Origin: Chloroflexota bacterium
GTDB taxonomy: Bacteria > Chloroflexota > Dehalococcoidia > Lucifugimonadales > Lucifugimonadaceae
DNA: 64,000 nt
Reading direction: 5' to 3'
NCBI GenBank assembly: GCA_027618835.1
Contig: JAQCHZ010000008.1
Location: 1 to 64,000, forward strand
A model generated the notes under the pieces. The model saw only the letters and a program-made list of their open reading frames with translations, was not told the DNA's origin and made no database searches. The translations under genes were made by a program, and so were the position numbers. Below, one piece after another: positions 54,485 through 61,267 of this stretch (position 1 is its first letter; every line of letters begins with the position of its first letter).

Positions 54485-55987
54485 CTAGTTGTGGCTAACA
54501 GGCTCTGGAAGCGTGATCACGCGTAGCATGTTGGTTGTTCCAGATACGCCGATTGGTAAACCGGCGACAGCAACAATCGTATCGCCTTCTTTTGCGATTT
54601 TTGTTTCGATAGCGAGATTCGAAGCTTCGGCGAACATATCCTGAATGTTTGTGTGCTTTTTTACTGCGACTGGGATCACTCCCCAGCGCAGAGCAAGTTT
54701 TGCTCCGGCTCCTATATCTGGCGTAAGGGCAAAAAGAGGCGTTTCAGGACGATACGCAGCGACGCGTGCAGCCGTGCTTCCCGATGTGGTGAAAGCGATT
54801 ATGGCTTTGGCGTTGATCCTGCGGGCTGTGGCTGTCGCCGCGTCGGCGATTGCATCGTCGATGGGGAGCCCGCCTTTGGAAGCAGCATCGCGTCTTCGCC
54901 CAGCCATTTTCGGATGTTCGAGATAACGCTCAGCTCGTTTTGCGATTTTCGCCATCGCCTGAACCGCCCTGTACGGGTATTTTCCTACCGACGTTTCGGC
55001 TGAAAGCATGATCGCGTCGGTTCCGTCTCGAACCGCGTTGTAGACGTCGGTAACTTCAGCTCGAGTCGGCATTGGCGCTTCGATCATCGATTCCATCATC
55101 TGCGTGGCAGTGATTACCGGCTTTCCGATTTCATTTGCCATTCGAATGATTCGTTTCTGTACGGACGGCACGCGTTCGAACGGCAGTTCGACACCAAGAT
55201 CGCCACGGGCGACCATGACAGCGTCGGACTTGTCCAAAATATCTGCGAGATTGTCGACTGCCTGCTGGATTTCGATCTTGGCAACCAGCTGTGGAGTTTT
55301 GCCCGCTGCGGCGAGTTGTGTTCGAACTCGTACAACGTCGTCGCTGTCTCGAACGTATGAGAGGCCGACGAAATCGATATCGGATGATTCAACCCAGGTT
55401 AGCGCTTTTGCTGTTTCGGGCGTGAAATAGTCGACTGTGGTTGTGTTTCCGGGAGCCGTGACTGCTTTATTTGGCTTCATCACACCGCCACGAGTAACAC
55501 GGCAGTGAATCTCCTCTTCATCGATCGAGTCGACACGTAGTTCAACTGATCCTTCGTCGATAAGAACTAAAGAACCCTTTTTGATGTCGTTGTGTAGACC
55601 GAGCGGCCAGACGTTCGCACGTTCGGCGTTTCCGTCACAAGGCGTTCGCTGGAGGATGAAGCTTTGGCCGGTCTTTAACGTAATTTCCGGTTCTGCCATG
55701 TCGCCGACGCGGTATTTTGGGCCGGGCAGGTCGGCGAGGATTCCGACTGCAACTCCCATTTCCTCTGCGGCTTGACGAAGAATCTTCACATAGCCGTCGT
55801 GGTCTGAAGAATTACCGTGGCTGAGGTTTAGTCGACCGACGGACATTCCCACACGAATCAGCCGTTTTATTCGAGATAACGTGCCCGTGGCGGGTCCGAT
55901 CGTGCAGACAATACGAGTTCGCGCGCGGCTTTTCAAAAACGGTGGGAGCAAATAAGAACTGTCGGTAACGGCCAAGCGATTCTCCAA
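54485..55987 (-). CDS. pyk: Pyruvate kinase
   Basis: A 500-residue glycolytic enzyme making pyruvate and ATP from phosphoenolpyruvate and ADP. RIVCTIGPATGTLSRIKRLI opens the barrel, GRLNLSHGN follows, the metal site is VMVARGDLGVEL, and GKPVITATQMMESMIEAP and AIMLSAETSVGKYP are intact. The C-terminal regulatory domain is present without the extra PEP-utiliser domain. The start is probably TTG at 55987. Convergent with the DUF4129-like gene. Confidence 0.96.
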   Translation of the reverse strand: MENRLAVTDSSYLLPPFLKSRARTRIVCTIGPATGTLSRIKRLIRVGMSVGRLNLSHGNSSDHDGYVKILRQAAEEMGVAVGILADLPGPKYRVGDMAEPEITLKTGQSFILQRTPCDGNAERANVWPLGLHNDIKKGSLVLIDEGSVELRVDSIDEEEIHCRVTRGGVMKPNKAVTAPGNTTTVDYFTPETAKALTWVESSDIDFVGLSYVRDSDDVVRVRTQLAAAGKTPQLVAKIEIQQAVDNLADILDKSDAVMVARGDLGVELPFERVPSVQKRIIRMANEIGKPVITATQMMESMIEAPMPTRAEVTDVYNAVRDGTDAIMLSAETSVGKYPYRAVQAMAKIAKRAERYLEHPKMAGRRRDAASKGGLPIDDAIADAATATARRINAKAIIAFTTSGSTAARVAAYRPETPLFALTPDIGAGAKLALRWGVIPVAVKKHTNIQDMFAEASNLAIETKIAKEGDTIVAVAGLPIGVSGTTNMLRVITLPEPVSHN

Positions 55988-56173
55988 AAATGAGCTGATT
56001 CAATCGTAGGTGACTATAAAGTTATGTACCGAGGATACAGATTTTCAATGGCGAGTTGCTGTTTTTTAGGGCCAAAGATCGCCTATGCGAATTTGACAGC
56101 GAAACTGACAGGTCTAAAATTCAATTAACGCCCCGACACAACTTCGACCTAGTTCTTACTTCAGGATCGCTAC

Positions 56174-56875
56174 GTGACAATCGCACAATCTCTTCTTTCT
56201 CTTCAAAGCACGGATCAATCATTAGCGATAAGGCGACGTGAATATCGCGAAGTTCAGACAGAATTAGATTCTGAAGGTGGCTTGCCAAAGCTTCGGGAGT
56301 CATGCGACAGCACCCGAGTTCGCGTACTCGAAGCAAAGGTAAATATGGCACGCCTCGAATCCGATTTGGCAATGCTGAAGGATGAGGTCGCAGAGCTGGA
56401 GACCCGACTCTACGGTGGAGCTATCACTAACGTGCGTCAGCTTACAGCGATTGAGACAGAGCACTCCTCGGTTCGACGCAATCTAGCCCAGGTCGAAGAG
56501 GCAATCTCTCCGGCGCAAGTTGCCGCAGAGCATGCTGGACAGCAGTTCGCCGACTTAACAGCCGACCTTGAAGCCAAAGAAAAGGCATGGAAGACACGAC
56601 AGGTTGAGCTTCGTTCGGAAAAGATTGAGAAGGGCACTGCATTCAACGAAATGCTGCAAATTCGTAACGACGAAGCTGCGCAGATTCCCGACGACCATCT
56701 TGCCCGATACACGCGACTATTCCGCTCGAACCGAGGCATTGCCATCGTTCGAGTAGACCGTGGTGTTTGTCAGGGTTGTGCAGTTCGACTGCCAGTCGGC
56801 GAACTAACCCGACTCCGAGCGGCTGATGGCCCAATTCCCTGCAGTTGTGGCAGGGCGCTCCTTACCGAGCATTAA
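56174..56875 (+). CDS. Coiled-coil plus C4 zinc-ribbon protein (CdsZ/CT398-like)
   Basis: A 233-residue protein. Residues 1-170 are an antiparallel coiled coil with heptad-rich Glu/Arg/Leu and a tip region LYGGAITNVRQLTAIE. The C-terminal zinc ribbon has CQGC and CSCGR. This is the conserved bacterial family of hairpin coiled-coil zinc-ribbon proteins; its cellular role is not settled, with secretion or RNA-related functions suggested in different organisms. The GTG start is at 56174. Its TAA is followed with no gap by the TTG of the next gene. Confidence 0.85.
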   Translation: MTIAQSLLSLQSTDQSLAIRRREYREVQTELDSEGGLPKLRESCDSTRVRVLEAKVNMARLESDLAMLKDEVAELETRLYGGAITNVRQLTAIETEHSSVRRNLAQVEEAISPAQVAAEHAGQQFADLTADLEAKEKAWKTRQVELRSEKIEKGTAFNEMLQIRNDEAAQIPDDHLARYTRLFRSNRGIAIVRVDRGVCQGCAVRLPVGELTRLRAADGPIPCSCGRALLTEH

Positions 56876-58315
56876 TTGCGGGCAGTTGGATTCCATAGTG
56901 AACCCGCTCAAATTACCAACGCGTCCCTAGGCGATTCTGACTCCGGTCAAGGATCTGGGGACGTTTTTGATTCATCGAGCCGACTTCATCCCCGCGCCGA
57001 GATCGAACTGTACTGTCAGCGAAATTCTCATCATCTGGATAATTGGTTCGAGCCAGCAGAAGACGAAGCAGCAAACGACTTAGACGCCAGACACGATCGA
57101 TATCGCCGGATGCTCGCATCGTTTACCGGAGCTAACGCTCGACTGGCGCTTGTGCTTGTGCCGGATGCATCTCACATCGCCGAAGATCTTGAAACGTTGG
57201 TTTCTCGGCTCCTTGAACTAAACCGCCTCGATACCGAAGTTCGGTGTACCGATCCCGATCGTCCAGACGCACTCCAAAGTGGAGAGCAGTTGTTAGGGCT
57301 AGGCGGACGATCACCCCAGCGACAAGCACGAATTCGAGACGCCATAGTTGCGAAAGCATCTAGAGGCGAAGTGCTTGGAAGAACTCCTTATGGTTATGAA
57401 TCTGGCACAGACGGTCTGATGAAGCCGGTGCCGGTAGAAGCAGAAATAATAAAAGAGATTTTCGAAACGTACGCAGGTCCGTGGCACGCTGATGACTCAA
57501 AACCCAAGGGCGGTCCCGGTCTCAGGGCAATTGCTCGATCGCTGAACGATCGTGGGCTTTTGACTCGCACCGGTCGACCGTGGTCAGCCTTGGCGGTTTC
57601 TGGGATTCTTAAAAATCGTACCTACCTCGGAACGTATAGCCGGTACGGTGTTCGAATCGCTGGAAGTCATGAACCACTGATCGAACGTGAAATATTTAAT
57701 CGTGCTGAAGCTGTGACCAAAACTCGTAAGCCAGTCCGGCGTCGAGCAACCGAACCGCCGTACCTACTTGGTGGAATTGCCCGTTGCGATTTGTGCGGTC
57801 GTGGCCTGTCGGGACTCACTCGACGGAGAAGCTGGAAACGGACCAATGGTACGTCTACTTCGAAATCGTACCGGTACTACGAGTGTCCTTCACGAGACGC
57901 CCGCCGAGAGCGTACCGAGGATGTTGCACGTCACGCCTCATGGCATGCCGACGAACTCGAAACAGCGGTTCTTGCTGACATTGGTGGCTGGGGACGCCGG
58001 GTTCAGAATAAATTGAAACCGGAAGTCGGTGATTCAGTGGCAGAAAAGATCGCTGATGCCGAGCGAGAGTTCACCCGTGCCGTAAGGGCTGTGGCTTCGG
58101 CGTACGGAACATTGAACGACCTCGCTGCCCCGTTGGAGCGATTAGAACGGACACGCTCTGGCTCAGGGGCACCTTCGGTCGAACAGATCGATATCGAACA
58201 ACTACTTACCGACGTGCAAAGTACCGATATCAGCGTAGCCAAGGCTGCCGTTACCGCAGTGGTCGAGCGAGTGATCGTTGGCGAAGACCAAGCTGAAGTG
58301 CTTCCACGGTTCTAG
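56876..58315 (+). CDS. Serine-recombinase-like protein with degenerate catalytic domain
   Basis: A 479-residue protein. Residues about 145-390 are clearly a large-serine-recombinase DNA-binding region: recombinase domain (RGEVLGRTPYGYE, GGPGLRAIARSLNDRGL, VSGILKNRTYLGTYSRYG) and zinc-ribbon (ARCDLCGRGL, YYECPS), then a coiled coil. The N-terminal resolvase domain is recognisable only in outline. The usual YxRVS active-site segment reads GFHSEPAQ, and the DRLxR segment reads DASHIAED, so the catalytic Ser and both Arg are missing. It starts at the base after the zinc-ribbon gene stop (TAA TTG). A domesticated DNA-binding protein is more likely than an active integrase. Confidence 0.8.
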   Translation: MRAVGFHSEPAQITNASLGDSDSGQGSGDVFDSSSRLHPRAEIELYCQRNSHHLDNWFEPAEDEAANDLDARHDRYRRMLASFTGANARLALVLVPDASHIAEDLETLVSRLLELNRLDTEVRCTDPDRPDALQSGEQLLGLGGRSPQRQARIRDAIVAKASRGEVLGRTPYGYESGTDGLMKPVPVEAEIIKEIFETYAGPWHADDSKPKGGPGLRAIARSLNDRGLLTRTGRPWSALAVSGILKNRTYLGTYSRYGVRIAGSHEPLIEREIFNRAEAVTKTRKPVRRRATEPPYLLGGIARCDLCGRGLSGLTRRRSWKRTNGTSTSKSYRYYECPSRDARRERTEDVARHASWHADELETAVLADIGGWGRRVQNKLKPEVGDSVAEKIADAEREFTRAVRAVASAYGTLNDLAAPLERLERTRSGSGAPSVEQIDIEQLLTDVQSTDISVAKAAVTAVVERVIVGEDQAEVLPRF

Positions 58316-59733: not shown

Positions 59734-60087
59734 TTACCAGCGTTCTCGACGATCACGGTCGCCACCGCCGCCATCGCCACGGTCGCCACCGCCGCCACCG
59801 CCGCCACGGTATCCACCGCCGCCGCCGCCGGAGCGAGGAGCCTGCTCTTTAGCCTCGTTTACAACAATTGGTCGACCATCGAGGTCAGAACCGTCCATCT
59901 CTGAAATGGCTTGTTGAACAGGACCTTCCTCTGTAAACGTCACAAATCCAAAACCGCGAGACCTACCGGTCTCCCGATCACTGATAACGGTTGCCTCTTC
60001 AATGTCACCGAACCGCTCGAAAGCAGTCTTGAGACCGGACGAATCCGTCTCCCATGCGAGGCTACCAACAAATAACTTTTTACCCAT
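59734..60087 (-). CDS. Glycine-rich RRM RNA-binding protein
   Basis: A 117-residue protein. Residues 1-80 form one RNA-recognition motif with RNP2 LFVGSL and RNP1 RGFGFVTF. Residues 85-117 are Gly/Arg/Asp-rich. Proteins of this build in bacteria are cold- or stress-responsive RNA chaperones. The gene has its own terminator. Confidence 0.93.
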   Translation of the reverse strand: MGKKLFVGSLAWETDSSGLKTAFERFGDIEEATVISDRETGRSRGFGFVTFTEEGPVQQAISEMDGSDLDGRPIVVNEAKEQAPRSGGGGGGYRGGGGGGGDRGDGGGGDRDRRERW

Positions 60088-60872: not shown

Positions 60873-61248
60873 CGCGAGGGGGACGGACGGTCGCCGCTGT
60901 GTTTCGACACGGGGGAGGAAAGTCCGAGCACCTCATGAATCAGAGTGCCTGCTAACGGCAGGGCGGGGCAACCCGACAGAAAGTGCAACAGAAAATAAAC
61001 CGCCTTTCGTTTCGGCGATCGGTAAGGATGAAACGGTGCGGTAAGAGCGCACCGCTCGGATGGCGACATTCGAGGCAAGGTAAACCTCACTCGGTGCAAG
61101 ACCAAATAGGGAAGCTATGACCGGATTCGGGGAGCTTCCGGGTTGGTTGCTTGAGCCTGTAGGCAACTGCAGGCCTAGATGGATGGCCGTCACTGATTTC
61201 GCTTCATTGCGGAGTTAGTACAGGACTCGGCTTATAGTCCGCCTCGCG
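60873..61248 (+). ncRNA. rnpB: RNase P RNA (type A)
   Basis: The catalytic RNA that matures tRNA 5' ends. P1 closes with CGCGAGG (60873-60879)/CCTCGCG (about 61242-61248). Conserved regions appear in order: GGGGAGGAAAGTCCG, GACAGAAA with ACCGCC, GGTAAGGATGAAACGGTGCG, GGTGCAAGACC, AGATGGATGGCCGTC and the 3' ACAGGACTCGGCTTATAG. Length (about 376) and order fit type A. A terminator follows. Confidence 0.95.
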
Positions 61249-61267
61249 GCGAGACGAAACTTACGTG

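Follow-up and report, generated by a model that had tools for sequence, protein, structure and literature searches.

Loss of catalysis and class-wide retention of a large serine recombinase in Dehalococcoidia, a candidate DNA-binding protein encoded next to a coiled-coil zinc-ribbon gene

The window analysed here is the whole stretch of 64,000 nucleotides, and the gene rec occupies positions 56876-58315 of its forward strand. From a TTG start codon, rec encodes a protein of 479 amino acids that belongs to the large serine recombinases and is without catalysis. Analyses of its residues, distribution, descent and selection leave us highly confident that rec has been domesticated as a vertically inherited, near single-copy chromosomal gene whose catalytic function has been lost. 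The complete reading, in which a recombinase was captured, died, was retained and now acts as a DNA-binding protein together with the product of the upstream gene cc, is considered probable, though with clearly less assurance. The rec family represents a new fate for a known enzyme family, and it is both ancient and widespread. Serine integrases are known to have been domesticated where their recombination serves the host; retention free of catalysis across dozens of families would be new.

By the architecture of its predicted structure, rec is a complete large serine recombinase with a resolvase fold, a Recombinase DNA-binding domain (RD), a zinc ribbon and a coiled coil, because the model matches solved integrases over its whole length and carries a resolvase fold at its front. 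The RD (PF07508) was located by Pfam at residues 186-282 (57431-57721, forward strand; E 3e-15) and the recombinase zinc ribbon (Zn_ribbon_recom, PF13408) at residues 297-369 (57764-57982, forward strand; E 9e-9), in agreement with the original prediction that both domains had been kept. The zinc ribbon contains C304, C307 and C337 and a DNA-facing strand with R316, W320, Y332 and R333, residues that are conserved throughout the class, and the helices of the coiled-coil motif within the zinc-ribbon domain were assigned to residues 388-428 (58037-58159, forward strand) from the secondary structure of an AlphaFold2 model. This model was built from 51 orthologues (pLDDT 85, pTM 0.51). Although Pfam gave no Resolvase match for rec of the window, a resolvase fold is evident in the model, and the Pfam Resolvase domain itself was detected in four orthologues of the class (L157, L161, L168 and L171). 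The dead resolvase-fold domain (residues 1-145; 56876-57310, forward strand) was delimited by comparing the model with the catalytic domains of TP901-1, gamma-delta, Sin and 3guv; the front domain matched TP901-1 with Z 11.6, 3guv with Z 11.5 and the gamma-delta resolvase catalytic domains with Z 9.6. Residues 1-479 of the model align over the whole length with the SPbeta integrase YokA (Z 17), Bxb1 (Z 14) and PhiC31 (Z 12); that the rmsd against these integrases is large is a matter of domain arrangement. A profile match to PHROG 95 (E 2e-46) was also obtained.

Loss of the active-site signature had been read from the sequence of the window, and alignment with 20 intact recombinases, mostly from the same phylum, bore it out: GFHSEPAQ (56888-56911, forward strand) stands at the place of YxRVS and DASHIAED (57164-57187, forward strand) at that of DRLxR. 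The positions of Tyr6, Arg8, Ser10, Arg45, Arg68 and Arg71, all of which are kept in 20 of the 20 ordinary recombinases in the same alignment, are occupied in rec of the window by F, S, P, H, H and E, respectively. Ser10, Arg68 and Arg71 occur together in none of the 121 rec orthologues, against all 20 ordinary recombinases. Across the family the catalytic-Ser position varies freely, and in L161 it is taken by Thr. L162 and L167 still read YFRES, yet the arginines at 68 and 71 are missing from both; the Ser motif therefore persists in places as a relic. An intact Ser/Arg set elsewhere in the protein was looked for and not found. Judged by its residues, rec is unable to act as a recombinase by any known chemistry.

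Four other residues of the dead domain, Cys47, His52, His100 and Cys124 (within 56876-57310), are present together in 58 of the 81 sequences of the order, and they bear on the idea that the active site has been rebuilt, with His100 and Cys124 lying, in the order, at the sheet end of the old active site. The remaining members of the class do not conserve His100 and Cys124, however, and the catalytic-Ser position is not under constraint; moreover, the secondary structure places Cys47 and His52 at the opposite end of the sheet from His100 and Cys124. A new enzyme built on the old fold is accordingly rated very unlikely. A Cys-His-His-Cys metal site was also considered and rejected, since the two pairs, conserved as a set in the order only, are probably not in one place and a single metal site is thus unlikely.

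Of the 100 genomes listed for the order, 82 have a rec orthologue (E <= 6e-25), among them almost all members of the genus of the window; two further matches in this search were ordinary recombinases, which are sporadic among the relatives. Profile searches then covered the class and the phylum. Within the class Dehalococcoidia, 100 of 197 genomes were recovered at E <= 2e-76, after which nothing appeared until 4e-54, where ordinary recombinases start. In a sample of 251 genomes from the phylum, no E value below 4e-56 was obtained outside the class, and the non-class matches that were checked proved to be ordinary recombinases with intact active sites. The gene spans some 40 families in the order search and many more in the class; because many class members are without rec, it is dispensable at the scale of families. 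In a quick tree, the 100 dead sequences all fell on one side of a branch with an SH-aLRT of 100. Distances between rec proteins track those of pyruvate kinase (rho 0.70 over 32 loci, with 0 of 999 permutations as high).

The ratio dN/dS was computed against a relative of 94% identity, more distant pairs being left out because their synonymous sites were saturated. The whole gene gave 0.062 and the dead domain 0.056, from which it follows that the dead domain is not drifting; helix E plus RD (residues 146-285) came to 0.016, the zinc ribbon to 0.049 and the C-terminal part to 0.168. The value for rec is near that of pirin (0.044) and lower than that of cc (0.107). Higher ratios for rec, up to 0.31 and still well below 1, were obtained with several pairs taken from other genera. 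These data also bear on whether rec is simply a decaying recombinase gene without function, as the vanished catalytic residues and the decay of another recombinase remnant in the genome might suggest. The reading frames are open in the orthologues listed, and the gene is kept across many families under purifying selection; decay is refuted by that selection and is given next to no credence.

Purifying selection, vertical inheritance and a conserved locus were thus all found for rec, as for a host gene, and catalysis has been lost in 121 of the 121 sequences examined, which form one branch and are conserved class-wide; the domestication proposed in the original prediction is well supported on these grounds. 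The picture of an enzyme borne by a mobile element does not fit, given the core-gene neighbours, the vertical inheritance and the lack of a close viral relative in scans of low sensitivity. Two such scans of IMG/VR for a viral progenitor gave only two matches, at 24-25% identity, and the best phage records against rec were ordinary integrases at 24-30% identity.

A dead recombinase could still serve in the control of live ones, either as an integrase that blocks integration by serving as a decoy or occupying sites, or as a non-catalytic partner of an active recombinase. The complete recombinase architecture of rec, including the coiled coil that mediates contacts between integrases, would suit such a role, and so would the sporadic occurrence of ordinary serine recombinases in the relatives. 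The genome of the window (89% complete), however, contains no Resolvase-domain match, and a search of it for a second active serine recombinase yielded only an interrupted, decayed remnant of an ordinary Recombinase domain, 87 amino acids long (L235, contig C21, 75521-75718). With no other Resolvase domain and only this broken remnant at hand, a helper role for an active recombinase is unlikely in this host. Conservation of rec across the class in hosts without a common active partner, and the little sequence that ordinary recombinases share with it, count further against control of other recombinases, which we consider quite improbable.

The gene directly upstream, cc (56174-56875, forward strand), encodes a coiled-coil and zinc-ribbon protein of the CT398/HP0958(FlgZ)/MSMEG_4306 family (COG1579, DUF164). 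Single-sequence Pfam matches of cc were below the cut-off, and full-length profile matches were obtained to CT398 (E 5e-28), HP0958 (E 2e-22) and MSMEG_4306 (E 1e-20). The coiled-coil hairpin and C-terminal C4 zinc ribbon that define COG1579/DUF164 are both present. The conserved cysteines are C199, C202, C223 and C225, so that cc of the window differs from its COG1579 relatives in not having two full CxxC pairs. As first reported from the sequence, the TTG start of rec adjoins the TAA stop of this zinc-ribbon gene. Across the family, 100 of the 121 loci have cc directly upstream of rec and on its strand, with a gap of mostly 0-12 nt; the gap of about 220 bp at locus L036 is unlike the tight spacing elsewhere. 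Absence or frameshifting of the pair in relatives was looked for, and the pair was found intact and syntenic. Some family-level groups (f41, f46, f92 and f98) keep rec without a detected cc, which indicates that the partnership is not obligatory and that rec can act alone. The coupling to the zinc-ribbon gene that was originally proposed therefore holds as a matter of gene order, and not as a strict dependence.

A core-gene setting had likewise been claimed for the locus, and no phage or mobile gene was seen among the neighbours of rec in the window, which are genes for pyruvate kinase, pirin, an RRM protein and RNase P RNA. Pyruvate kinase (54485-55987, reverse strand; Pfam PK E 1e-100, supported by synteny) is the divergent neighbour in the order. 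The class A RNase P RNA gene, rnpB (60875-61250, forward strand; Rfam RF00010, 318.6 bits), lies 2.5 kb downstream of rec in the window and adjoins it in most relatives; in the genus of the window the pirin and RRM genes separate the two. The gene for the small RRM RNA-binding protein, which has a glycine-rich tail, lies at 59734-60087, after pirin and before rnpB, and is read from the opposite strand. The conserved cc-(rnhA)-rnpB neighbourhood around rec was absent from the original prediction. Among the 81 loci of the order, 55 have the start of the conserved 5' motif of rnpB 24-264 bp beyond the stop codon of rec, and Rfam detected rnpB in 8 of 10 loci tested. The RNase HI gene (rnhA) stands directly behind rec in 22 loci of the class, often with rnpB about 500 bp further. 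Many rec-less genomes, whether they belong to the class or not, have rnhA directly behind cc and rnpB behind rnhA, or else only rnpB after cc; at other rec-less loci neither gene follows cc. A survey of the neighbourhoods of flgZ homologues recorded rnhA and, in Borrelia, rnpB (PMC3372290).

Because rec-less genomes show cc followed by RNase HI and/or rnpB, the recombinase appears to have been inserted into an old cc-rnhA-rnpB cluster. On the most economical history, the recombinase gene of a mobile element would have landed behind cc in an ancestor of much of the Dehalococcoidia, and the recombinase would have lost its nucleophile and catalytic arginines and been retained by the host; later, rnhA would have been lost from the locus in the order of the window, and the pirin and RRM genes would have been inserted between rec and rnpB in its genus. 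The tree of cc for counting gains of rec was poorly resolved and is compatible with a single gain. Reciprocal losses of the two genes were also observed: in one order member without a detected rec (L267, genome G081) rnpB lies 72 bp after cc, and at four loci of the class (L142, L145, L147 and L148) cc is undetected and rec lies within 100 bp of rnpB.

Such a neighbourhood raises the question of RNA. The products of rec and cc might bind RNA or R-loops as partners of RNase HI and RNase P RNA, the DNA-binding surface having been redirected to structured RNA or RNA-DNA hybrids. The short distance from rec to the rnpB motif, the rnhA genes directly behind rec and the persistence of the rec-rnpB adjacency at the four loci lacking a detected cc are in favour of this. 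The cc-rnhA-rnpB order exists without rec, though, in and outside the class and in other phyla too (PMC3372290), so rec may be a passenger of its location; the rnpB promoter seemingly has elements between rec and rnpB or within the end of rec, and this by itself could tie the two genes together; and selection on rec is still strong in the genus of the window, where two genes intervene. An RNA-directed function is regarded as unlikely, if somewhat less so than the control of other recombinases.

Binding of DNA is the function that we favour for rec. Its class-wide conserved residues sit mostly in the DNA-binding half, and R217, R256, R316, W320 and R333 are near-invariant in rec and different in most ordinary recombinases. 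Y332 and R333 align with Tyr297 and Arg298 of the A118 (LI) integrase, in whose DNA complex Tyr295 and Tyr297 of the zinc-ribbon strand touch thymine methyl groups (PMC3783163). That contact positions are kept across such distances suggests a common DNA target. As to the partner family, a CT398 homologue of Waddlia co-localises with DNA and pulls down RpoD (PMC6426960), and FlgZ protects RpoN (PMC3372290). The conserved contact positions, together with a partner family that touches transcription elsewhere, point to rec as a sequence-specific DNA-binding protein; argued from architecture, a regulatory or architectural role on DNA is plausible, and we judge the case for it about evenly balanced. 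We infer a course of action in which rec, made together with the CT398/FlgZ-type protein, would dimerise and bind a specific DNA sequence, where it would bend or bridge the DNA or act as a transcription factor, the two gene products often cooperating to a regulatory end. A bolder proposal, that rec is a class-wide core DNA-binding or chromatin-type protein which forms with the sigma-associated CT398/FlgZ-type protein a two-protein global regulator new to bacteria, is put forward only tentatively and is more doubtful than not.

The resolvase fold, long helix E, RD and zinc ribbon with embedded coiled coil are shared by rec and the serine integrases (A118/LI, SPbeta YokA, Bxb1, PhiC31; PHROG 95), whereas rec is without the catalytic Ser, Arg8, Arg45, Arg68 and Arg71 and without a visible element or cargo, being inherited vertically, in nearly single copy, between cc and rnhA/rnpB. 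A parallel is offered by TldR, which derives from TnpB: both are mobile-element proteins that lost catalysis and were kept, as a transcription factor in the one case and putatively so in the other, and they differ in that rec has another fold and no RNA guide. TldR has been described as a phage-encoded RNA-guided transcription factor (PMC13418256). Hin-type invertases and the skin-element and fdxN recombinases are serine recombinases retained by the host (PMC8987985), but they are retained for recombining DNA, which rec, by its residues, cannot do. For COG1579, of which cc is a full-length relative, the order with rnhA and (in Borrelia) rnpB was already known (PMC3372290), and the published neighbourhoods consulted show no recombinase after the gene. 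No description of an inactive or domesticated serine recombinase family of this kind was found in the open literature, with few subscription journals covered. The family would offer a candidate DNA-binding protein that is widespread but unstudied in a large class with mostly uncultured members, a set of natural, catalytically silent integrases for the study of DNA recognition, and, through its locus, a clue to the unexplained clustering of genes for COG1579, RNase H and RNase P.

A sigma-70-like promoter of the cc-rec pair was recognized at 56093-56120 on the forward strand (TTGACA, 16 nt, TAAAAT), matching the consensus at 11 of 12 positions. An alignment of 17 genomes of the genus shows the block to be conserved, and conservation upstream of cc falls mainly on the promoter elements. 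An operator for autoregulation was also sought and rejected: the region before cc, the cc-rec junction and the stretch behind rec contain no long palindrome, and the search yielded no DNA target for rec. Production of a cc-rec fusion by stop-codon readthrough was considered, the frames being contiguous in the genus of the window, and was rejected because the relatives show each of the three stop codons and each of the three relative frames. At the junction (56838-56930), synonymous sites in the final dozen codons of cc and in codons 1-17 of rec are, in the genus of the window, much more strongly conserved than those in the remainder of the two genes; z is about 7 for a 10-codon stretch at the start of rec and 4.2 at the start of cc. 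Translation coupling is the simplest reading of the conserved junction. Some 20 nt ahead of the rec start codon there is a CCCTGC/GCAGGG hairpin.
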